Source: Rhodococcus sp. OK519
Lineage (GTDB): Bacteria; Actinomycetota; Actinomycetes; Mycobacteriales; Mycobacteriaceae
Reading direction: 5' to 3'
NCBI RefSeq assembly: GCF_003051005.1
Contig: NZ_QAOW01000016.1
Span: forward strand, 1 to 32,252
DNA length: 32,252 nucleotides
Shown: positions 4,609 to 22,992 of the stretch, in pieces
How positions within the stretch are numbered: position 1 is the stretch's first letter
Layout: each line of letters begins with the position of its first letter
The notes under the pieces: model-generated
Database searches by the model: none
Told to the model about the DNA's origin: nothing
The model's input: only the letters and a program-made list of their open reading frames with translations
Position numbers and translations under genes: made by a program

Positions 4609-4753
4609 CCATGGCATCCCAGCACCTCCGCCGAAGAGACGACACGACACCTCGTCCCCGCCGCGAAACACCGCCCCACACCTGAACAGCGGAAACACGC
4701 CCGCCATTCTCGGAAAGACAACGGCTTCTAAGCGAGCCGTCAGCCGGATGTCA

Positions 4754-4781
4754 GTCAGCTGACGGAGGCTGTCGGCACGGT
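4754..4781 (+). promoter_or_regulatory. Palindromic operator and putative promoter, copy 1
   Basis: GTCAGCTGAC at 4754-4763 is a perfect 10-bp palindrome, and two further bases on each side (TC...GA) also match across one mismatched pair. CACGGT at 4776-4781 lies where a -10 element would be (TACGGT in the other copy). A -35 at 17-18 bases spacing would fall at the start of the palindrome, so a bound regulator could cover it. The palindrome is directly visible; the promoter assignment is inference. Confidence 0.5.
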
Positions 4782-4793
4782 CGCCGAGCCATT

Positions 4794-4842
4794 CTCGTGG
4801 AGACATCGAAACCGCCCGGTACCCGGGCGAGACCACGAGGAG
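4794..4842 (+). promoter_or_regulatory. Leader hairpin covering the ribosome-binding site, copy 1
   Basis: Two nested stems are visible. The inner stem is CGCCCGG (4813-4819) with CCGGGCG (4823-4829) and a 3-base loop. The outer stem is CTCGTGG (4794-4800) with CCACGAG (4833-4839), plus a U.G pair at 4793/4840. The right outer arm overlaps the Shine-Dalgarno GAGGAG at 4837-4842, six bases before the ATG. If transcribed from the putative promoter, this RNA would mask the ribosome site until it is opened. No ligand or sensor type can be named. Confidence 0.6.
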
Positions 4843-4848
4843 CACACC

Positions 4849-6306
4849 ATGAACACCATCGCGCAGCACTGGATCAACGGACAGTGGACCGGCTCCGGCT
4901 CTGTTCTGGAATCGATCAACCCGGCCGACGGCACAGTCGTCGGCTCGTTCTACGACGGTGGCGAGGCGGAGGCCTCGGCCGCAGTGGACGCCGCCGCCGC
5001 CGCGTTCGAGACCACCGAATGGCCGCGTAATCCCTCGCTTCGGGCGACCGCACTCAGTCGACTGGCCGACGCCCTCGAGGCCCGGGTGCCCGAGGTTGCG
5101 GCCATGTTGTCCCGGGAGAACGGCAAGCTACTGGGTGAGACCACATGGGAAGTCAGCGGCGCGGTCGGGTGGCTGCGGTACGCGGCGGCCTCTGCGCACA
5201 CCCAGAACACCGGGCGCGCCGCCGAGACGGCACCTGGCCAGTACACCCACACGGTGCCCGAGCCGCTCGGTGTCGCCGGGATCATCTCTCCCTGGAACTC
5301 CCCCATCATGCTGACCGTGCGGGCACTGGGCCCGGCGCTGGCCGCCGGCTGCACTGTCGTCGTCAAGCTTCCGGCTCAGACGGCGCTGACCAATGAGCTT
5401 TTCGCGCAGGTCCTGGCCTCGGTCACGGAGATCCCGGCGGGCGTGCTCAGCGTGTTCACTGAGTCCGGCAACACCGGGGCACCGTTCCTAGTCTCCTCGG
5501 ACAAGGTCGACGTGATCAACTACACCGGCAGCACGCCGGTCGGGCGTCGTATCGCGGCCGCAGCCTCCACCACGCTCAAGCGGCTCGGGCTGGAACTGGG
5601 CGGCAAGGCTCCGATGGTGATCTTTCCCGACGCCGATCTGGACATGGTGATCCCGACCGTGGTGCAGTCGCTGGTGCTGATGAACGGGCAGTTCTGCTGC
5701 ACCGGCTCCCGTGTACTGGTTCACCGGGACATCGCCGACCAGGTGCGCACCCGACTCACCAACGCGCTCGCGCAGGTGCGGCTCGGCTCGGGCGACGACA
5801 AGGATGCCCAGCTCGGCCCGGTGATCGACAGGGCGTCCGCCCAGCGGATGGACGCGATCGTCGAGGAAGCCACCTCGTACGGCACGGTACTGCTGCGCGG
5901 CGGCGTGGTCACCGACGGCCCCCTGGCCGCCGGTGCGTTCTACCGGCCGAGCCTGATCGAGGTGGACCGCACCGACGTCCGGATCGTGCAGGAAGAGGTC
6001 TTCGGTCCGGTCCAGACGTTCGAGATCTTCGACGACGAGGACGACGCCGTGGCCAAGGCGAACGCCACCATCTACGGCCTGGCCGCCTCGGTGTTCAGCT
6101 CGGACTCGATGAAGGCCCGCCGGATCGCCCGGCGCATCCGTACCGGCACTGTATGGATCAACACCTGGGGAGCCATCAGCGAGGACTTTGAGGAGGGCGG
6201 CGTCAAGGGCAGCGGTTACGGCTATCTGTGCGGCCCGCGAGCGATTGAGGAGTTCCAGGCCCTCAAGGTGTATGTGGAGCAGGACCACACCCAGTCCACT
6301 CACTGA
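4849..6306 (+). CDS. NAD(P)-dependent aldehyde dehydrogenase
   Basis: This 485-residue protein is full length for the ALDH superfamily. Signature features are SPWNSPIML (the PWN anchor), the cofactor-loop region GSTPVGRRI, the general base Glu249 in LELGGKAP, the catalytic Cys283 in GQFCCTGSR, the EEVFGPV motif and the C-terminal GSGYGYLCG segment. It oxidises an aldehyde to its acid with NAD(P)+; the substrate is not readable from sequence. The ATG at 4849 has a strong GAGGAG ribosome site six bases upstream. It is the first gene after leader copy 1 and is followed by an SDR stub with its own ribosome site. The likely role is oxidation of a reactive aldehyde under control of the duplicated leader. 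Confidence 0.95.
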   Translation: MNTIAQHWINGQWTGSGSVLESINPADGTVVGSFYDGGEAEASAAVDAAAAAFETTEWPRNPSLRATALSRLADALEARVPEVAAMLSRENGKLLGETTWEVSGAVGWLRYAAASAHTQNTGRAAETAPGQYTHTVPEPLGVAGIISPWNSPIMLTVRALGPALAAGCTVVVKLPAQTALTNELFAQVLASVTEIPAGVLSVFTESGNTGAPFLVSSDKVDVINYTGSTPVGRRIAAAASTTLKRLGLELGGKAPMVIFPDADLDMVIPTVVQSLVLMNGQFCCTGSRVLVHRDIADQVRTRLTNALAQVRLGSGDDKDAQLGPVIDRASAQRMDAIVEEATSYGTVLLRGGVVTDGPLAAGAFYRPSLIEVDRTDVRIVQEEVFGPVQTFEIFDDEDDAVAKANATIYGLAASVFSSDSMKARRIARRIRTGTVWINTWGAISEDFEEGGVKGSGYGYLCGPRAIEEFQALKVYVEQDHTQSTH

Positions 6307-8338: not shown

Positions 8339-8964
8339 GGGAACCCTCGCCGCCTCGGGAGCTTGGCCGGCACGGTGTACGAGGGTGCCCGTACCGTGCG
8401 CTCGGTGCACCTGCTCGACGACGGCGGCACGTTGTTCACGTCGAAGACGCGGACGCACCCGCTGGCCCTGGACGACATCCTCACGGAGCCTCCGGCTCCG
8501 CAGCAGGGCCACGTCACCATCAACGAGGCAGACCTGATCGTTGCCGACAAGCCCTTCCCGGTCCTCGAGCGCACTCCTGCGGTTCGGTCGCTGCGCCCAT
8601 GTGCCCGGCAGGGTCTGCCGCTGGAGCCGCCGTCCGATGACGCCGACTTCCATCAGCACTGCGGGCTGAATGTCGGGAAGGCTGCCGGCGGAGGCGCCCA
8701 TATCGTCCGGGTATTTGCCGGACGGGGGATGACGGCGCGATGATCCGCGTGACCTTCGTGCTGTCGCTGCGGTGAGGCTGAAACGCCCGGCTGTGTTCTG
8801 CGTGATCTTCGTCTGGGGGCTGCGAGTGTCGGCGAAGCGAATGGCTTGACGGTTCGTTTGCCAGTGGATGCGACAATTGCTGGTCAGGTGCGCGGCTGGT
8901 GGTTCGACTGCTTCGCGCGGTACGACGAAGGACGCGGCGGATGTGGGCGAAGTCAAGGGCAGGC
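8339..8964. other. Long gap with coding-like but unassigned sequence
   Basis: No gene is recognised with confidence. The forward frame at 8363-8743 has plausible composition early on (GTVYEGARTVRSVHLLDDGG, then SKTRTHPLALDDILTEPP and INEADLIVADKPFPVLERTP), then becomes unconvincing. It could be the tail or middle of a lost gene. No ribosome site precedes its first ATG. The last 150 bases before the LAL regulator show no clear promoter. Confidence 0.35.
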
Positions 8965-11724
8965 ATGAGCGTCGGCCCGGCCGGACTGGTCGGTCGGGAG
9001 GGCGAGCTCGCCGAGCTTGCGGCGTTCCTGGACATGGCCGGGACGAACGGAGCCGCCCTGCTGCTCACCGGTGATCCGGGTGTGGGGAAGACTGCGCTCC
9101 TGGACGCGACAGCCGAGCTGGCGGTGGCGAAGGGAGTGCGGGTCGTCTGCGGGAGCGGCGTCGAGTACGAGACTGACATCAGCTTCGCGGGGCTTCATCA
9201 GCTCGTCGGTTCGCTGGCGGACGAGCTTGGTCGTCTGCCGCGTTCCACGCGGGAGGCTCTTGAGGTCGCCCTCGGTGTCGCCGCCGGGCCCGTGGGGAGC
9301 CGGATCGCCGTCCTGAACGCGGCACTGGCCCTGTTCGACGAGGCTGCGAAGGACCGGCCGTTGTTACTGGTGGTCGATGACCTTCATGCCGTCGACGAGG
9401 CGAGCCAGGCTGCGGTGGGTTTCGTCGCCAGACGACTTGGCGGTCGCCGCATCGGGCTGCTCGGAGCACAGCGAGACGAGTCCGACGAATCCTTCCGGCC
9501 CACCGGTCTGCCAGAGCTCGAGATCGCGCCGCTGGACGACGCGGACGCCCTGCGACTGCTGTCCCGGCGCTTCGCCCACCTTCCCCGCCGGGTCCTTTCG
9601 GCCGTGGCGCACGAGGCACAGGGAAACCCCCTTGCTCTGCTTGAGTTTGCCGGGTCCACGGAGGCGTCCGGCGAAAACCAACACGGCCTAGGGGCGGGGT
9701 GGGCGAGCGGCCCGGGGCGGGACGTGCGCGCTCTGTACGGCGCCCGCGTCGGACGATTGCCGCGGAGAACGCGCGAGGTACTGCTCCTCGCGGCTCTCGA
9801 GGGTTCCGGCGACATCGGCATTCTCGAGGCTGCCGGTGGGCCGGGCAGCCTCGAGCAACTCGCCCCGGCGGAGCGTGACCACCTGGTCATGGTCGCGGAG
9901 AACGGCCGCGCGGTGCGCTTCAGGCACCCGCTGGTCAGGTCCGCGGTGGTCGACGGTTCCACCGGCGACCAGCGGCGCAGCGCCCACAGCCGACTGGCCG
10001 ACGCGCTGGGCGACCAGCCCGAGCGGCGCGGTGATCACCTCGCGAGAGCCACGACGGCGCCCGTCGAGACGGTCGCCGTCGTTGTGGAGTCGGCGGCCTG
10101 GAGCAGCCTGCAACGCGGTGACGCCGACGGCGCGATCGCGAGGCTGCGGCGCGCGGCCGAACTGAGTCCCGACCGAGAGGTCCGCAGGCGCCGCCTGTCG
10201 AAGGCCGCCTACGTCGCTGCCTGGGTCGCGGGCCATCTGGAGGTCAGCCACGAGATCATGCGTGAGGTGGAGGGCGATCCGGCGGCTCGGTCGCTCTCGG
10301 CGGCCGCGGCGGCCGGCTTCCTCGTGCTCGTCACGGAAGGCGATGCCGATACGGCGCACGCGCTCCTGATGGAGGCGGTCGGGCAGGCCTCGGTGATGCC
10401 CGAACCACCGCAGGAGTTGGAGACCGCGCTCTTCACTCTCACCCTCGCCAGCCAGTACTCGGGCCGGCCCGAACACTGGCAGCCTCTGGTCGATGTGCTC
10501 GACCGGTTCCCCAAGGCATCGCCCGCCGCCGCGGCATCGCTGGGGTGCGTTCACCACGACCTCGGTTCCGTCACTGACGTCATGCTGCGCCGCCTGGACG
10601 AGGAGATCTCGCGGCTGAGGGACCAGAGTGACGCCGACGTGGTCGTTCGCACCGCCCTGACCGCCTCGTACCACGACCGGCTTCCGGGCTGTCGTGAGGC
10701 CGTGTCCCGGGTCATACGCGACGGCGGCGCGGTGGGGTCGAGCATGCCGGCCCTGATGTTCGTCGCCCTGGACAACCTGTACGCCGGCCGGTGGCAGCCG
10801 GCGGCCGACGCCGCGGACGAGCTCATCGCACTGTCCGAGGAGACGGGATACCACTTGTTCGCCCAAGTGGGACACTACGTCGCCGCAATGACCGCGGCCC
10901 AGCGCGGCGACCTCGACGCGTGCCGCCGCCACTGTGAAGCAGTCTGGGCGTGGTCGAGGCCCAGGGGACTGCAACGGCTGGAGAACTGCGCCCACCAGGC
11001 GGCGGCCCGGGCAGCCCTCGGCGCCGCCGACTTCGAGACGGCCTTCCGGCACGCCACAGCGATCTGCGCCCCGGGTGTGCTGCCGCCGTTCAACCCCGAG
11101 GCCGTGTGGTCCGCGCCAGACCTCGTCGAGGCCGCCGTGCGCACCGGGCGGCACGCGGAGGCGCGACGGCACGCGGACGCGCTGCGCGACGCCGGTGTCG
11201 GCCACCTCTCGTCGCGACTCGCGCTGAGCTCGGCCATGGTCACGGCGATGACATCAACTGCCGAGGACATGGTCCGGTGCTTCGAGGAGGCACTCGGACT
11301 GCCGGGCGTCGAGCAGTGGCCCTTCGAGGTCGGCCATGCTCGTCTGGCGTACGGCGAAGCGCTTCGCCGGCAAGGACTCAACCGTGACGCCCGGGTGCAG
11401 CTGGCCTCCGCCCGTGACCGCTTCGAGGAACTCGGGGCCCGTTCGTGGGAGGCCCGGGCCGCTGCGGAGCTCCGCGCCACCGGCATGACGCGGACCGGCC
11501 GGGGCAAGGCCGGTGAGGCCCTCACCCCCCAGGAGCTGGAGGTCGCCAGGCTGGCGGCGACGGGGCTGTCCAATCCGCAGATCGCGTCGCGTCTGTTCCT
11601 TTCGCCGCGGACCGTCTCGTCGCATCTCTACCATGTGTTCCCGAAGCTGGGGATCACGTCGCGGGCCGAACTCCGCGAGGCTCTGGAGGCGCTGCCACCC
11701 GCGCCTTCGGCCACGCAGCCGTGA
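8965..11724 (+). CDS. LAL-type LuxR transcriptional regulator (AAA ATPase with C-terminal HTH)
   Basis: This 919-residue protein is of the large ATP-binding LuxR (LAL) class. The Walker A GDPGVGKT lies at about 36-43, and a Walker B-like LLLVVDDLH at about 133-141. A long middle region of alpha-helical repeats (TPR-like, Ala-rich) follows, and the C-terminal LuxR HTH is at about 853-908 (LTPQELEVARLAATGLSNPQ, then SPRTVSSHLYHVFPKLGI). Such proteins usually activate transcription in response to a ligand or partner bound by the helical region. I choose ATG 8965 (MSVGPAGLVGRE), because the VGRE start of the NTPase domain follows at once and GGGCAGG lies before it; ATG 8941 or GTG 8899 are possible. 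It sits between the two leader-driven operons and is a natural candidate controller. Confidence 0.92.
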   Translation: MSVGPAGLVGREGELAELAAFLDMAGTNGAALLLTGDPGVGKTALLDATAELAVAKGVRVVCGSGVEYETDISFAGLHQLVGSLADELGRLPRSTREALEVALGVAAGPVGSRIAVLNAALALFDEAAKDRPLLLVVDDLHAVDEASQAAVGFVARRLGGRRIGLLGAQRDESDESFRPTGLPELEIAPLDDADALRLLSRRFAHLPRRVLSAVAHEAQGNPLALLEFAGSTEASGENQHGLGAGWASGPGRDVRALYGARVGRLPRRTREVLLLAALEGSGDIGILEAAGGPGSLEQLAPAERDHLVMVAENGRAVRFRHPLVRSAVVDGSTGDQRRSAHSRLADALGDQPERRGDHLARATTAPVETVAVVVESAAWSSLQRGDADGAIARLRRAAELSPDREVRRRRLSKAAYVAAWVAGHLEVSHEIMREVEGDPAARSLSAAAAAGFLVLVTEGDADTAHALLMEAVGQASVMPEPPQELETALFTLTLASQYSGRPEHWQPLVDVLDRFPKASPAAAASLGCVHHDLGSVTDVMLRRLDEEISRLRDQSDADVVVRTALTASYHDRLPGCREAVSRVIRDGGAVGSSMPALMFVALDNLYAGRWQPAADAADELIALSEETGYHLFAQVGHYVAAMTAAQRGDLDACRRHCEAVWAWSRPRGLQRLENCAHQAAARAALGAADFETAFRHATAICAPGVLPPFNPEAVWSAPDLVEAAVRTGRHAEARRHADALRDAGVGHLSSRLALSSAMVTAMTSTAEDMVRCFEEALGLPGVEQWPFEVGHARLAYGEALRRQGLNRDARVQLASARDRFEELGARSWEARAAAELRATGMTRTGRGKAGEALTPQELEVARLAATGLSNPQIASRLFLSPRTVSSHLYHVFPKLGITSRAELREALEALPPAPSATQP

Positions 11725-11788
11725 AAGCTACCGCTCGGGTCTCAACACTGCCCCGGCACTGACGTAAGCGATCCGCCGGCGGATGTCA

Positions 11789-11816
11789 GTCAGCTGACGG
11801 AAGCTGTCGGTACGGT
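11789..11816 (+). promoter_or_regulatory. Palindromic operator and putative promoter, copy 2
   Basis: The perfect palindrome GTCAGCTGAC at 11789-11798 is identical to that of copy 1. TACGGT at 11811-11816 is a better -10 match than the CACGGT of copy 1, so this copy may be the stronger promoter. The spacing is the same in both copies. Confidence 0.5.
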
Positions 11817-11827
11817 GGCCGAGCCAT

Positions 11828-11877
11828 CCTCGTGGAGACATCGAAACCGCCCGGTACCCGGGCGAGACCACGAGGAG
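11828..11877 (+). promoter_or_regulatory. Leader hairpin covering the ribosome-binding site, copy 2
   Basis: The outer stem is CCTCGTGG (11828-11835) with CCACGAGG (11868-11875), eight Watson-Crick pairs. The inner stem is CGCCCGG (11848-11854) with CCGGGCG (11858-11864). The right outer arm covers the GAGGAG ribosome site (11872-11877). The fold is the same as in copy 1 and slightly more stable. Confidence 0.6.
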
Positions 11878-11883
11878 CACACC

Positions 11884-12708
11884 ATGCCGTTCGTCACCGT
11901 CAGCGACGGAACCGAAATCTTCTACAAGGACTGGGGCTCGGGCCGGCCGGTCATGTTCCACCACGGCTGGCCGCTGAGCTCGGACGACTGGGACGCCCAG
12001 CTGCTGTTCCTCGTCCAGCGGGGCTACCGTGTCATCGCCCACGACCGCCGCGGGCACGGGCGCTCCGCCCAGGTCGGCGACGGGCACGACATGGACCACT
12101 ATGCGGCGGACGCCGCCGCCGTGGTGGCGCACCTCGGCCTGCGCGAGGTCGTCCACGTCGGCCACTCCACCGGTGGTGGAGAGGTCGCCCGGTACGTCGC
12201 CAGGCACGGTGCGGGGCGGGTCGCCAAGGCCGTCCTCATCGGAGCGGTCCCGCCGCTCATGGTCCAGACCGAATCGAACCCAGGAGGGCTGCCGGCCGAG
12301 GTCTTCGACGGCTTCCGCGAGGCCGTGGCCACCAACCGCTCCCAGTTCTACCTCGACCTCGCCTCCGGGCCGTTCTACGGGTTCAACCGCCCGGGCGCGG
12401 ATATCTCCCAGGGCGTCATCCAGAATTGGTGGCGTCAGGGAATGACCGGCAGTGCGCAGGCGCACTACGAAGGGATCCAGGCGTTCTCGGAGACCGACTT
12501 CACCGACGACCTCCGGGCGATCGACGTGCCCACGCTCATCATGCACGGCGACGACGACCAAATCGTCCCGATCGCCAACTCCGCCGAGACAGCGGTCACG
12601 CTGGTCAAGAACGCGCGTCTGAAGGTCTACACGGGGCTGTCGCACGGCATGTGCACCGTGAACGCCGACACCGTCAACGCCGACCTCCTCGACTTCATCG
12701 AGAGCTGA
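11884..12708 (+). CDS. Alpha/beta hydrolase (non-haem chloroperoxidase / esterase type)
   Basis: The 274 residues are the usual length for the bacterial cofactor-free chloroperoxidase/arylesterase group. The oxyanion region is HHGWPLSSDDWD. The nucleophile is Ser95 in GHSTGGGE, the acid is within HGDDDQIVP (about 223-225), and the base is His254 in GLSHGM. Family members hydrolyse esters or lactones and show perhydrolase/haloperoxidase activity in vitro; the true substrate is unknown. The start is ATG 11884 with GAGGAG six bases upstream, part of leader copy 2. The intact ABM gene follows after 55 bases and a broken SDR after that, so the three formed one operon. Confidence 0.93.
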   Translation: MPFVTVSDGTEIFYKDWGSGRPVMFHHGWPLSSDDWDAQLLFLVQRGYRVIAHDRRGHGRSAQVGDGHDMDHYAADAAAVVAHLGLREVVHVGHSTGGGEVARYVARHGAGRVAKAVLIGAVPPLMVQTESNPGGLPAEVFDGFREAVATNRSQFYLDLASGPFYGFNRPGADISQGVIQNWWRQGMTGSAQAHYEGIQAFSETDFTDDLRAIDVPTLIMHGDDDQIVPIANSAETAVTLVKNARLKVYTGLSHGMCTVNADTVNADLLDFIES

Positions 12709-12763: not shown

Positions 12764-13087
12764 ATGACCGCAACACCCACCAGCTACGTGACCGTCGTCT
12801 GGGACGCGAAGGCCAAGGCCGGCAAGGAGGCCGACCTCAAGACGTTCATCACCGCCGCCGTCACCCCCTCACGCAACGACCCGGGCAACATCGACTACGA
12901 GGCATACGAAGTCGAGGGCAAGCCCTGCGAATTCGTCATCTACGAACGCTGGGAGACCCGCGCCCACCTCGACGCCCACCTCGCCGCGCCCCGAATGCGG
13001 GAACTCATCCCGCAGATGCTCGAACTGATCGACGGATCCATCGAGGACGGCATCCGCCTCCTGCGCCCGTTCCGTCCCGCCCACTAG
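12764..13087 (+). CDS. ABM-domain protein (putative quinol/antibiotic biosynthesis monooxygenase)
   Basis: This is a 107-residue single-domain protein with the dimeric ferredoxin-like ABM fold pattern: an initial strand YVTVVWDAKAKAGKEADLK, then TPSRNDPGNIDYEAYEV, CEFVIYERWETRAHLDAHL, and a last helix MRELIPQMLELIDG. Such proteins are cofactor-independent monooxygenases acting on quinols or polyketide aromatics, or members with no known reaction. The ATG has an AAAGGA ribosome site. It lies between the alpha/beta hydrolase and the frameshifted SDR and is followed by two strong RNA hairpins. A broken reverse-strand copy of the same gene exists at 4189-4353, so it has been duplicated along with the leader. 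Confidence 0.9.
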   Translation: MTATPTSYVTVVWDAKAKAGKEADLKTFITAAVTPSRNDPGNIDYEAYEVEGKPCEFVIYERWETRAHLDAHLAAPRMRELIPQMLELIDGSIEDGIRLLRPFRPAH

Positions 13088-13211: not shown

Positions 13212-13871
13212 GTGACCACCACAATGATCACCGGCGGCAACAGGGGCTCGGCCCCGAGATCGCGCGCGGACTTGTCCAGGCGGGCAAGACGGGTTGGATC
13301 GGAGCCCGGGACGCCGAGAACGGACGCAAGGCCGCCGACCGGCTCGGCGCCGACTTCGTCCAGCTGGACGTGACCGACGACGCGTCGGTCAAGACGCTGC
13401 GCGCGGATTGGCCACCTGGACATTCTCGTCAACAACGCCGGCATCCTCGGTGAAGTGACGGCCCCCGAGGACATGATGGCCGACCAGATCCGCCACGTCT
13501 ACGACGTCCTCGGACTGGTCCGCGTCACGCACGCGTTCCTGCCGCTGCTGCGGAAAGCGGCCGCCCCGTCCGTCGTCAACGTCACCCGCGGCCTCGGCTC
13601 GTTCACGCTGACCCCACGACCCGGAGCGGGGTCGAGTCGCAGTATCCGTTCGCTGCCTACGGCTCGTTAAAGAGGGCGGTCACCATGCTGACCACGCAGT
13701 ACGCCAGGACGATCCCCGACGTCCGCTTCAACGCGGTAGACCCCGGCCAGACCGCGACCGAGTTCACCGGCCGCATCGGGCAGAGCGTCGAGGCGGCAGT
13801 GCGTATCGCCGCCCTTGGGCCCACACGCCCACCGGCACGGGGTGACCGACCGCACCGGCGTGCTCCCCTGA
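13212..13871 (+). pseudogene. Short-chain dehydrogenase, broken by several frameshifts
   Basis: Reading through three frames gives a nearly complete SDR: MITGGNRG then GPEIARGLVQAGKT, GARDAENGRKAADRLGADF, LDILVNNAGI, VTHAFLPLLRKAAAPSVVNV, then YPFAAYGSLKRAVTMLTTQYA, VDPGQTATEFTG and finally GVTDRTGVLP with a TGA at 13869-13871. Frameshifts lie near 13250, 13405, 13615 and 13825. At the start, an ATG at 13210 is followed directly by TGA, and the GTG at 13212 is the usable alternative, so even the start seems damaged. A good AGGAGAG ribosome site remains. The protein resembled the intact SDR at 3095. Either it is a true pseudogene or this stretch has base-calling errors; flanking genes are intact. 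Confidence 0.88.
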
Positions 13872-18904: not shown

Positions 18905-19927
18905 TCATATTGCGGAAGGGTGCCGCGTCGGGTTGAGGGACGCTGCGCCGACGGCATGCTCGCGTGAGGCGCTCCAGGCGGCGCCGAGTGAGAATTGGCT
19001 CGACACGCCGTAGTGGCGCATGGCGTCGGCGACCCGACGCCGTCCTGTTCGGGCAGTCAATCCGAGGGCGGTCGATGCGGATTCCATCGTCATTCCCGAA
19101 TTCATCAGTCGCAGAATCGGATCCCACGGGTTCTCCCATGAGTGATTGTGTCCGGTGACCGGTACCGCTTCCTCCCAGATGCGCTCGTAGATCCACGTCA
19201 TCGTGGCTGCGAGTGTGGGGGATTGGATCGACATGACGCTGCTGGGCCATGCCTCTCCCCAGGTGAAGGGGATGCCCACACTCGTTTGGTCGAGTATCCA
19301 GAAGAAGCTCGGTGGGTTGGGGTGCATCCGAACCTGCGAGCCGGCGTCGATCTCATACGTGATCTGGCTGCGTCCGAGCTCGGAGTTTGCGTCGGCGGCG
19401 CTGACGATCATGCGGATGTCGTGGCCGGGTGCGGCGTTGTCCTCCCAGTACGAGCCGTAGTTGGCGGCGCGGAGAACTTCGAACAGTGGTCTGGTGTCGG
19501 GCAGGCACGAGTAGGAGGCGCGGGGTTTGGCGCGTGCGGCCTGCAGCCGGTACATGTCCGGGGCCGCAAACGGGCCGTGCATGACGTCGATGGGTAGGTC
19601 GTGGGCATCGGTGTTGCCGTGCTGCCAGGCCTGCAGCAGCTTCGGCAGTGTGCGGAGTATTCCTTGGGTCTTCGCAATGCTCGAGTCGAGATCATGCGAG
19701 AGGCCGGTGAGGATCTGGTGAGTGACGTCGGCGATGGTGGCGTCAGGGCGCCGATAGGTGATGACTCCGTCTGCGAGGGAGAGGAATCCGAGCTCACTGA
19801 GTCGCGAGACTTCCTGCTCCGTCGCCTCGACGCTGCGGCCTGTGGCCTCGGCGAGTTCGGCGATCGTCTCGATCCGGCGGCGCAGTGCGATGTCGAGGAA
19901 TTCTGCGAGTTCGGTGGTGCGGTTCAT
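18905..19927 (-). CDS. Two-HTH transcriptional regulator (TrmB/LuxR-like)
   Basis: The protein has 340 residues. The N-terminal domain resembles a winged HTH of the TrmB type (IETIAELAEATGRSVEATEQ, then EVSRLSELGFLSLADGVITY). The C-terminal region carries a second, LuxR-like HTH: ILRLMNSGMTMESASTALGL, then TARTGRRRVADAMRHYGVSS. The middle holds a mixed segment of about 150 residues with DIRMIVSAADANSELG, probably a sensor domain. This architecture is common in actinomycetes and mostly uncharacterised. ATG 19927 is well placed. It is divergent from the secreted pentapeptide-repeat gene across about 425 bases, but a regulatory link is only a guess. Confidence 0.75.
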   Translation of the reverse strand: MNRTTELAEFLDIALRRRIETIAELAEATGRSVEATEQEVSRLSELGFLSLADGVITYRRPDATIADVTHQILTGLSHDLDSSIAKTQGILRTLPKLLQAWQHGNTDAHDLPIDVMHGPFAAPDMYRLQAARAKPRASYSCLPDTRPLFEVLRAANYGSYWEDNAAPGHDIRMIVSAADANSELGRSQITYEIDAGSQVRMHPNPPSFFWILDQTSVGIPFTWGEAWPSSVMSIQSPTLAATMTWIYERIWEEAVPVTGHNHSWENPWDPILRLMNSGMTMESASTALGLTARTGRRRVADAMRHYGVSSQFSLGAAWSASREHAVGAASLNPTRHPSAI

Positions 19928-20352
19928 TCACAAGCTCCTGCGTCGGGGGTGGTCCTCACGGCTGCGCTGCACGGTGCATGAACGATGTATGGCCGAATGT
20001 GTCCATCGTCGAAGACCGGCCACAAATCGCACTATATCCATGTCGTCTCCGATGTTTGTTTCACTGCCCGGTTCCTCGCCGGCGGGTTTGCCGCGTCATC
20101 GAACGTGTCTTCCAACGCTCAATCCATCACTGGCTCGAGCGCGGAGTGCCTGGACAGCCATGCGCTGCCGCGATCTGCAGATGTTGGCCATTACCGGCCA
20201 AACTTGTTTCGTGGCCACTAAAGCCCTCGTTTTCACTGTTATGGTGCGAATTCGTTGGGCCGACCATCCGGTTTTCTATTCGTTTTCGTGTGCGGTCTCG
20301 GCTCTTCACCGTCTTCACCCCTGCGGACACCACCAGAGAAGGCAACACCACG
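19928..20352. promoter_or_regulatory. Divergent upstream region with a TTGGCC-N6-GGCCAA dyad
   Basis: This 425-base non-coding stretch lies between the two-HTH regulator and the pentapeptide-repeat gene. The clearest feature is a perfect 6-bp inverted repeat, TTGGCC (20184-20189) and GGCCAA (20196-20201). The part from about 20200 to 20350 is AT-richer than its neighbours, as a promoter would be. The forward frame is open here, but its sequence (a Cys-rich start) is not protein-like and has no ribosome site. Confidence 0.4.
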
Positions 20353-22992
20353 ATGACGACAACCGGACACCACCGATCCCGTAGGCGCACGGTCCACAGA
20401 CCAATCAGCGCTGCGCTCGGCGTGATAGCTCTCGCAGCCTCAATAATGTTCGGGACAGCGGTCGTACCCGCCTCGGCCCAGCCCGAGGTTCTGAACGGCG
20501 TCCAGTTCATCACCAGAGTGTGCGGAAATTACGTCGCCAACCCCACCCTCGGGAACGCGACCGATTGCACTGGCAAGGATCTCAGGAACTGGACCCTGGG
20601 CGACGTGAACCTGAACTTTGCGAAGATGACCGGCGCGGACCTGCGTGGCTCGACCCTGTACGGCGCAACCCTGATCAGCGCGGAACTGAACGGCGCGAAC
20701 CTCACCGGCACGGGCCTGACCGGCGCGGGTCTGACCAACGCATCGCTGAGCGGCGCGAACCTGACCAACGCATTGCTGGATGGCACGCACCTAGACGGCG
20801 CGAACCTGGCCGACGCGACCCTGGACGGCGCGAACCTGGGCGGCGCGAACCTGACCCGCGCGAACCTGACCGGCGCGACTCTGGCCCGCGCGAGCCTGGC
20901 CCGCGCGAACCTGACTGGCGCGAGCCTGGCCGGCGCGAACCTGACCGGCGTGAACCTGACCGATGCGAGACTGACCGGTACATCTGCAATTCCGGCCAAT
21001 ATCACTGCGACCACCGAATCCACAGACGGCGCCGTCGTCACCTGGGGCTCACCCGTCATGCCCGTCGGACTGACGTTCGGCGAGTGCGACCCTCCCTCCG
21101 GGACGATGTTCCACGTCTATCTCCCGACCGCGACCGTGACCTGCACCGTCACCAGCTCGTTCGACGGCGCTCCGACAACAGGCACCGGTACCTTCACCGT
21201 CAGGGTCGACCCCCTATTTGTCGCACCCGTCTTCACCAACCCCCCACAAGCGCCGCTGAAGGCTGGAGTCGGCGTGCCTTTCACCTACACGTTCGATGTC
21301 ACCGGAATACCCGAGCCCACCCTCGCCCTCACCGTCTACAGCCGACCCGACTGGTTCACCCTTACCGGCAGAACCCTCACCGGAACACCCGATGCTGCCG
21401 GTAGCTACCCCGTCACCATCACCGCACGTAACGGCTACGACCCGTACGGCACAGTCCTGAACTTCACCATCGAAGTCACCGTCGAGACTCCCGCCCAGAC
21501 GATTGCCAGGGTGTGTGGAAACTATGTTCCCAACCCCACACCCCAGAGTTTCACCGATTGTTCCGGTAAAGACTTGACCGGAACACGACTGAGCGACATG
21601 AACGCGAAATTGAACCTGAACTACGCGAATCTGGACAACGCGGTCCTGGCCGGCGCGAACCTGTCCTTCGCGAAACTGACCAGAGCGAGACTGACCAACG
21701 CGACACTGACCAACGCGACCCTCGACGGCGCGGACCTGGACGGCGCGACCCTGGCCGGAGCGAACTTGGCCGGCGCGAACCTGTACTTCACGGACCTGAC
21801 CGGCGCGAACCTGACCGGCGCGAGCCTGTCCGGCGCGAACCTGAACCGCGCGTACCTGACCGATGCAAACCTGACTGGCGCGAACCTGGCCGACGCGAAC
21901 CTGACCGACGCGGAACTGTCCGACGCGAACCTGACGGGTTCCTCTGTAATTCCGTCCGACATCACGGTCACCGCCGCATCCGCCGACGGCGCCGCCGTCA
22001 CCTGGGTCACCCCCGCCATGCCCACCGGACTGGCGTTCGGTATCTGCACCCCGGCCTCCGGAACAACGTTCCCGGTCGGTCGCACCTCCGTCACCTGCAC
22101 CGTTATCGGCATGTTCAACGGCACTCCGACGACAGGTTCCGGTACCGCCACCGTCACCGTCAACGCTGCCCCCGCTGCCCCCGCCTTCGCCGACAGCACT
22201 CCAGTGACGTTGTCAGGGACCGTCGGAACCGAATTGCCGCACACGTTCACCGTCACCGGAACACCTGTCCCGCAGGTCAGCGTCACTGCCGGTGAACTAC
22301 CCGACGGCTTGACCTTGAGCACTGCCGGCGTCCTGTCCGGAATACCCACTACTCCCGGACTCATCTCCTTCACGATCACCGCCGCCAACGGCACCGCCCC
22401 CGACGCGACCTTGCAGGTCAACGCGACCATCGCCCCCGCGCCCGAGACGCCCGCGCAGATCATCGCCAGGGTGTGCGGAAATTACGTTCCCAGCCCCACC
22501 CCCGAGAGCTTCACCGATTGTTCCGGTAGGGACCTGACCGGCACCAACCTCACAGGTGCAACCCTCACCGGCGCCAACCTCGCGGGCACGGATCTGACCG
22601 GTGCCGACCTGACCGCCGCAGATCTTTACCACGCCAATCTGACCGGTGCGGACCTCGAAGGCGCGACCCTCACCGGCGTCACCCTCACCGGTGCGAACCT
22701 GACGGGCACATCCGCAATGCCGGCCGACATCACCCAGACCGCCGAATCCCCTGCAGCCGCCACCACCTGGACTACCCCCACCGTGCCCACCGGACTGACC
22801 TTCGGTACCTGCACCCCGGCCTCAGGGACGGTATTCCCCGTCGGCACCACCACCGTCACCTGCACTGTCACCAGTGTGACCGGTGACGTCCTGACAACAG
22901 GTACGGGTACGTTCACCGTTACCTCGACACCGGCGGTTGAGCCGCCCGCAGCCGGGTTCCTCGGCTCACTGGGCCCGATCTTCGCAAGCTGA
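20353..22992 (+). CDS. Secreted three-module pentapeptide-repeat protein with HYR/Ig-like domains
   Basis: The protein has 879 residues. A Sec signal peptide occupies about 1-42 (twin Arg/Arg-rich start, hydrophobic core, PASA then Q). Three modules follow, each opening with a VCGNYV....P....TDC.GxDL motif at residues near 56, 386 and 706. Each opening leads into a pentapeptide-repeat run (A[N/D]L-T-G type; about 27, 25 and 12 repeats) and then an HYR-like beta domain with two Cys (FGxCxPxSGT and TVTCTV). Modules 1 and 2 add a putative Ig (He_PIG-like) domain. The runs should fold as right-handed quadrilateral beta-helices, and the paired Cys suggest disulfides outside the cell. An adhesin or surface-stalk role is inference. 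The start is ATG 20353 with AGAAGG upstream. Confidence 0.9.
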   Translation: MTTTGHHRSRRRTVHRPISAALGVIALAASIMFGTAVVPASAQPEVLNGVQFITRVCGNYVANPTLGNATDCTGKDLRNWTLGDVNLNFAKMTGADLRGSTLYGATLISAELNGANLTGTGLTGAGLTNASLSGANLTNALLDGTHLDGANLADATLDGANLGGANLTRANLTGATLARASLARANLTGASLAGANLTGVNLTDARLTGTSAIPANITATTESTDGAVVTWGSPVMPVGLTFGECDPPSGTMFHVYLPTATVTCTVTSSFDGAPTTGTGTFTVRVDPLFVAPVFTNPPQAPLKAGVGVPFTYTFDVTGIPEPTLALTVYSRPDWFTLTGRTLTGTPDAAGSYPVTITARNGYDPYGTVLNFTIEVTVETPAQTIARVCGNYVPNPTPQSFTDCSGKDLTGTRLSDMNAKLNLNYANLDNAVLAGANLSFAKLTRARLTNATLTNATLDGADLDGATLAGANLAGANLYFTDLTGANLTGASLSGANLNRAYLTDANLTGANLADANLTDAELSDANLTGSSVIPSDITVTAASADGAAVTWVTPAMPTGLAFGICTPASGTTFPVGRTSVTCTVIGMFNGTPTTGSGTATVTVNAAPAAPAFADSTPVTLSGTVGTELPHTFTVTGTPVPQVSVTAGELPDGLTLSTAGVLSGIPTTPGLISFTITAANGTAPDATLQVNATIAPAPETPAQIIARVCGNYVPSPTPESFTDCSGRDLTGTNLTGATLTGANLAGTDLTGADLTAADLYHANLTGADLEGATLTGVTLTGANLTGTSAMPADITQTAESPAAATTWTTPTVPTGLTFGTCTPASGTVFPVGTTTVTCTVTSVTGDVLTTGTGTFTVTSTPAVEPPAAGFLGSLGPIFAS

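Follow-up and report, generated by a model that had tools for sequence, protein, structure and literature searches.

The 32,252 nucleotides of Rhodococcus sp. OK519 DNA analysed here (the window) raise the question of why almost the same sequence should stand directly before two operons, and whether the duplicated element would act as a promoter, as an RNA or as both. The preliminary description of this DNA had reported 106-bp leaders with four differences, ungapped and alike only as far as the start codons, and the repeat finder agrees: positions 4745-4851 and 11780-11886 form a two-copy family of 107 nt (96%) with 103 of 107 bases identical, four substitutions and no gaps, and the match runs through the ATG and ends after it in both window copies. 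Upstream, the match extends with one gap to 123 columns in total (93.5%), so that the copied unit is slightly longer than first noted (Table 1). The same genome holds a third, diverged copy of the leader (G000:C20:8888-8988), which was absent from the first DNA search results.

Table 1. Features of the two control regions and neighbouring genes, in window coordinates (ALDH, aldehyde dehydrogenase).
Feature	Positions	Strand	Basis or remark
Control region, copy 1, before ALDH gene	4729..4851	+	107-nt gapless repeat, 123 columns with one gap; left limit approximate
Box B, copy 1, operator-like, CAGTCAGCTGACGGAGGCTG	4752..4771	+	conserved in all clades
Palindrome GTCAGCTGAC inside Box B, perfect	4754-4763	+	sequence
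Predicted -10-like hexamer CATTCT, copy 1	4790..4795	+	NANNCT spacing; predicted start ~4802
Left outer arm CTCGTGG, copy 1	4794..4800	+	shares its first two bases with the last two of the -10-like hexamer
Inner hairpin CGCCCGG-TAC-CCGGGCG, copy 1	4813..4829 (arms 4813-4819/4823-4829)	+	predicted 5' UTR
Right outer arm CCACGAG, copy 1	4833..4839	+	overlaps GAGGAG 4837-4842
ALDH gene, 485 aa	4849..6306	+	Pfam Aldedh 2.6e-132
LAL-type LuxR regulator: N-terminal ATPase, C-terminal LuxR HTH	8899..11724	+	Pfam AAA_16 5e-20, GerE 2.5e-16
Control region, copy 2, LuxR-hydrolase intergenic region, before alpha/beta hydrolase gene	11765..11886	+	same repeat comparison
Box B, copy 2, CAGTCAGCTGACGGAAGCTG	11787..11806	+	pattern search, all-clade conservation
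Predicted -10-like hexamer CATCCT, copy 2	11825..11830	+	predicted start ~11837
Outer stem 11829-11835/11868-11874 and inner hairpin 11848-11864, copy 2	11829..11874	+	sequence, folding
Alpha/beta hydrolase (esterase / cofactor-free haloperoxidase family)	11884..12708	+	Pfam Abhydrolase_1
Putative quinol monooxygenase, next operon gene	12764..13087	+	annotation of homologues on Streptomyces NBC_00334 plasmid

The two operons had been described as unrelated, a view that did not survive comparison with other loci. Between them lie an LtrA-like gene, so named from plasmid annotation, and the gene for the LAL-type LuxR regulator, which neighbours the leaders and encodes a protein of 941 aa (its annotated start is uncertain) with an ATPase domain and a C-terminal LuxR HTH. 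The order ALDH, LuxR, hydrolase, with a leader ahead of each operon, recurs at eight loci: the window, plasmids of R. qingshengii JCM 15477, Streptomyces NBC_00334 and S. albogriseolus LBX-2 (where the hydrolase is reduced to a remnant), and G585, G516 (where LtrA is partial), G980 and G1229. As judged by this comparison, the two operons are parts of one conserved cluster flanking a single LuxR gene, found also on Rhodococcus and Streptomyces plasmids, and ~8.4 kb of it, 92.6-93.4% identical on the Rhodococcus and NBC_00334 plasmids, suggests that it has spread horizontally. The best solved relatives of the hydrolase are 1zoi, an esterase, and 4dgq, a non-heme chloroperoxidase, and the gene behind it has homologues, 81-92% identical, that likewise trail the hydrolase, the one on the NBC_00334 plasmid (91.5%) being annotated as quinol monooxygenase.

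Structure-blind box pattern searches of 401 family genomes, then of 394, 315 and 260 genomes (partly overlapping), and plasmid records yielded 37 leaders. Of these, 32 are complete (25 in clade I, 4 in clade II and 3 in clade III, clades being defined here by the resemblance of LuxR and leader); in the other 5 a deletion has removed the hydrolase and some of the leader. The first box pattern gave 12 matches in 9 of the 401 family genomes and none when reversed, and each of the 12 lies either in a LuxR-linked cluster or on a contig from a genome that has such a LuxR. Reversed controls gave no match for the first two patterns; for the broader pattern they gave 13 against 14 real matches and 6 against 15, a real chance rate, with about as many control matches as matches dropped. 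Thirteen distinct matches with neither a cluster gene downstream nor a -10-like element were rejected as leaders (G533, G416, G497, G541, G779, G977, G963, G1076, G1212, G708, G1266, G1248 and G1121:C61). G541, G1266 and G1248 (L207, L228, L229) carry a similar TCAGTCAnCTGACGGAGGCG box and a CTAGCGT element near the start codon, before other genes, and that box may belong to another regulator. A contig scan with 14 fixed stem-region bases matched unrelated phyla, the pattern being too loose, and these matches were taken as chance. A genus DNA search at E 0.001 matched only the window's own genome, and the diverged G009 leader surfaced only in later searches; in one search, eight short pieces matched besides the window and G106 and were left out.

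Other features of these loci deserve mention. A second, diverged version of the cluster occurs in the same genome (G000:C20:6112-11954, L176), with a LuxR 70% identical and a clade II leader. On the R. qingshengii plasmid (L200) and in G516 (L205) the ALDH gene has ATC at the position of the window's ATG, and the plasmid annotation places the protein start at that ATC. The SDR gene that trails the monooxygenase in relatives is matched in the window at 13212-13831 in frame 3 and then in frame 2, and looks interrupted. In clade III loci (L179, 9360-10949; L177, 6578-8166) LuxR and the leader are separated by an additional large ORF, which we take to resemble the DUF222/HNH repeat family. The window also contains a partial Mutator-family transposase (1431-2024, Pfam Transposase_mut) and a long ORF of many 15-base repeat units (19885-22992), presumably pentapeptide-repeat-like.

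The conserved core of the 37 leaders is the box and the -10-like hexamer, not the outer stem. Box B occurs twice in the window, against 0.04 expected from shuffles of it, and CAGTCAnYTGACGGArGCT is common to all clades, the all-clade consensus being CAGTCA..TGACGGA.GCT followed by G.GC.A..CT. The hexamer NANNCT lies 23-24 bp past TGACGG in 36 of 37 leaders (34 match the strict pattern, and two have GAGT in place of GAGC), the remaining one being the deleted leader of G585:C26. The box tracks the regulator gene, apart from the ALDH leader of G1017 and the leader of G124, which lie on contigs with no LuxR gene in the stretch seen. Changes per site in clade I amount to 0.45 in the box and 1.71 in the spacer behind it, with 0.83 in the hexamer, 0.57 and 0.71 in the left and right outer arms and 0.14 in the right inner arm; the arms are too constrained in this clade for substitution rates alone to tell promoter from RNA. 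Just upstream of the G1121 leader (L230) stands a tandem array of three boxes that repeats every 28 bp. In four ALDH copies (window, G244, G516, G980), only TAAGCG is left of the upstream element CTGACGTAAG found in the hydrolase copy, so that, if it is a second box, it would be dispensable or those copies would be weaker. A mini-ORF in the box (ATG TCA GTC AGC TGA) was rejected, as it is lost in clade III and lies upstream of the predicted start.

LuxR proteins that act from the class II activator position use a dyad box near -42.5. The palindrome centre at 4758.5 would lie at -43.5 from a start at 4802, predicted to be this classical position and nearly that of the TpdR box described below, and the predicted 5' UTR would span ~47 nt. 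As -10 elements, CATTCT/GACGCT are poor, and no -35 was recognised in the leader. We infer that the LuxR regulator would bind the box and activate transcription through the -10-like hexamer from starts near 4802 and 11837. It is probable, as far as sequence can tell, that the leader is a duplicated, LAL-linked unit of operator, promoter and UTR that places both operons under the LAL regulator. A control region of ~120 bp, made up of the operator, an activator-dependent promoter and a short 5' UTR with a hairpin, would have evolved between the LAL-LuxR gene and the hydrolase operon and then been copied ahead of the ALDH operon in the same mobile cluster. The LAL regulator would probably bind CAGTCAnYTGACGGA as a class II activator adjoining RNA polymerase, and both operons would be switched on together once it senses its signal. 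The inner hairpin would stand in the mRNA ahead of the ribosome site, where it may tune translation or stability, and, with transcription beginning where predicted, most of the outer stem would fall outside the transcript.

The preliminary description had placed its emphasis on the RNA. Its nested fold can indeed form in both copies, where both arm pairs sit in minimum-energy folds, and the one stem mismatch, T/C at 4793/11828, turns a U.G pair extending the stem into C-G as proposed. Segments of 62 nt are more stable than their shuffles (z -3.69 and -4.84, 0 of 200 shuffles as stable), and the excess is smaller for the whole 107 nt (-1.78 and -2.47), or with 29 nt of coding sequence added (-1.89 and -3.01). 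An intrinsic terminator was rejected, there being no T run after the hairpin. The ribosome site, said to be covered by the right outer arm, is overlapped at GAGGAG (4837-4842) but covered only in part.

These folds could mean that transcription begins upstream of 4794 and that the outer stem masks the ribosome site until a ligand, a protein or heat releases it, the operator being a second layer of control, an RNA switch that we regard as unlikely. With a 5' end at 4786, AGGAGC is unpaired at only 0.08 in copy 1 and 0.06 in copy 2, as such a switch would have it. With 5' ends at 4795-4805 these values rise to 0.57-0.67 in copy 1 and 0.30-0.40 in copy 2, where unmasking is weaker because the coding sequence pairs with the ribosome site. 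The left outer arm overlaps the -10-like hexamer; RNA from ~4802 would lack this arm, and folding predicts that with such a start masking would be mostly gone in the ALDH copy. Masking hinges on the position of the 5' end, and it is therefore the transcription start that decides the switch question. When 13 of the 32 complete leaders (six from clade I, four from II and three from III) were compared with 300 upstream-shuffled controls, stability z ranged from -2.4 to -4.6 in clade I, from -1.7 to -3.6 in clade II and from -0.2 to -0.9 in clade III. The site was more hidden than in controls in W_ALDH, W_ABH, G244_ABH and G1121 (fraction at most 0.003), with G1017_ABH a borderline case (0.05), which makes five of six clade I leaders, but it was not masked beyond controls in G482 (0.68) or in any of the seven clade II/III leaders tested, the clade II site being more open than in shuffles (0.93-1.0) and that of clade III unremarkable (0.34-0.95).

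The evolutionary record of the outer stem is similarly divided. All seven of its pairs form in 24 of the 25 leaders of clade I, G482 breaking a pair, and across the 21 distinct ones 99.3% of its cells are paired. One of its pairs, C4796/G4837 in the window, occurs as C-G, U-G and U-A, with the two-sided change from C-G to U-A in G244_ABH and G1121, which group apart, and the covariation score is matched by just 4 of 500 shuffles. This pair counts against the promoter reading, on which only chance would explain it. Against a switch, it is the single covarying pair, the two-sided pair count is matched by 125 of 500 shuffles (relatedness is uncontrolled in both comparisons), and most one-sided changes (C to U, A to G) leave pairing intact at no cost. 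The search for compensatory changes that the preliminary description had suggested thus found them at one outer pair in two clade I lineages, but the outer stem is not kept in clades II and III, where its homologous columns form 4-5 of 7 pairs in all seven leaders in an alignment that was not structure-fitted. Clade II leaders retain 5-6 of the 7 inner-hairpin pairs at homologous columns, clade III leaders 2-4. Adding the outer stem to a hairpin-only model lowered the scores of the six clade II/III leaders that were detected, by 8.5, 8.8, 8.7, 11.8, 5.2 and 1.3 bits, and neither model detected G124; within clade I, the outer stem added 1.5 bits for G1121 and cost 2.9 for G482. We compared these two structured models because a sequence-only model, ~18 bits below the hairpin model even for clade I, is uninformative on structure.

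Other helices close the leader outside clade I. Clade II has a different one, UGGUGGA/UCCACCA, over the start codon (shuffle energy p 0.000-0.073), which speaks for control by RNA, and the region is closed by other helices in G124 and G359 (p 0.033-0.083) but not in G395 (p 0.158-0.269) or G363 (0.58-0.68). One could then imagine a portable unit whose operator, promoter and translational lock copy themselves together from operon to operon within a regulon. The operator would stay fixed and gene conversion would keep the copies of one genome alike, while each clade would have rebuilt, from a different sequence, the helix that hides its ribosome site or start codon (CTCGTGG/CCACGAG in clade I, UGGUGGA/UCCACCA in clade II, CGGUC/GACCG in some of clade III), a scheme that we think improbable. 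A further RNA switch, limited to clade I, is conceivable. The idea of a leader carrying both operator and translational switch is therefore retained for the operator-like box, the inner hairpin and the clade I outer stem, but not for masking or the outer stem outside that clade. A general cis-acting RNA unit was not borne out: Rfam gave no gathering match in the window, and none up to E 1 in 4700-4880, that would place the leader in a known structured RNA family, and the structure model, run on the whole genome, recovered both window copies and, at E 6.8e-8, the C20 copy, with no copy away from these loci below E 0.6. RNA thermometers of the fourU or ROSE type pair the ribosome site in an imperfect helix; the outer stem consists of seven perfect G-C-rich pairs, with no U run opposite the ribosome site.

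The inner palindrome CGCCCGG-TAC-CCGGGCG could also be read as DNA, an operator for a second regulator such as a repressor acting past the start. Its arms are symmetric, and their variation in clade I (G.T at the loop end in three leaders, two-sided changes in none) does not favour RNA over DNA. The palindrome is weak in clade III, however, though the box persists there, and no candidate regulator is conserved beside it at the loci compared, so that we hold this to be very improbable.

The copies themselves indicate how the leader would have moved. In clades II and III, all leaders ahead of a hydrolase gene are of the LuxR-hydrolase intergenic locus type, and copy 2 is on this ground likely the original of the two window copies. 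In G363, by our reading, the hydrolase behind the clade III leader is lost, and the leader now stands ahead of an aldo/keto-reductase-like gene, the second gene in G395. With both flanks comparable, ALDH and hydrolase leaders match along 120 to 231 columns; in NBC_00334, where the record begins, the figure is 163. This extent points to the LuxR-hydrolase intergenic region as the source. Private variants are common to both copies of one genome, for instance CAGCCAGC in both G1229 leaders, and within-genome copies are closer than shuffled pairings (sum 45 against a mean of 58, p 0.0025, nine genomes, shared descent uncorrected), which suggests gene conversion or repeated duplication. The high identity of the window copies would also be expected if the second were a by-product of recent duplication, devoid of regulatory meaning, but the box and hexamer are kept in ten ALDH leaders across separate genomes and plasmids, and this within-genome likeness extends to nine genomes; we give that explanation hardly any credence. 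The 9,196-base contig G695:C48 holds a leader, ALDH, LtrA-like gene and LuxR between ends that share 104 identical bases, possibly a circle or tandem array formed via leader repeats, or an assembly effect.

If the leader is indeed a duplicated control region of a LAL regulon, it would supply an unstudied LAL-LuxR regulator, carried by mobile clusters of actinobacteria, with a candidate operator, a promoter and a pair of targets, and the 37 leaders, with their duplications and deletions, would form a natural series for testing the operator. Were the outer stem transcribed, it would be a rare case of an operator and a translational lock spreading as one duplicated unit. Our literature searches, with two papers available to us in part, recognised no publication describing the leader or the cluster.

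Among known systems, class II LuxR-type promoters resemble the predicted arrangement in the place of their palindromic box and in the LuxR-family HTH, but the regulator here carries an ATPase domain, which LuxR regulators of the acyl-homoserine-lactone type do not have, and its binding to the box is putative. The predicted clade I fold can pair part of GAGGAG, as thermometers and riboswitches do; it differs from them in having no Rfam match and no conserved unpaired sensor region, in its restriction to clade I and in a left arm that is perhaps untranscribed. From what we could consult of the report on the SARP-LAL regulator PimR (PMC5930380), the likeness lies in a large actinobacterial ATP-binding regulator, operators conserved between clusters and repeated sites; PimR binds heptameric direct repeats through its SARP domain and is without a LuxR HTH. 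The closest parallel may be TpdR, a LAL-LuxR activator of Rhodococcus jostii TMP1, at whose PTTMP promoter box B is mapped at -51 to -37, with starts 45 and 52 nt before the ATG and 28-nt spacing between boxes A and B (PMC6099782). In the portion of that paper available to us, TpdR differs in its box (TnnAAnnGCGGAnTC), its genes and its length (788 against 941 aa), its hairpin lies in the promoter and not in the UTR, and a duplicated leader does not figure in the description. The two systems nevertheless share, as far as that portion goes, a LAL-type LuxR gene adjoining a catabolic operon, a box that overlaps the -35 region (here with its centre predicted at -43.5), a similar start-to-ATG distance (here predicted at ~47 nt), inverted repeats near the box and, in G1121 only, the 28-nt box spacing.
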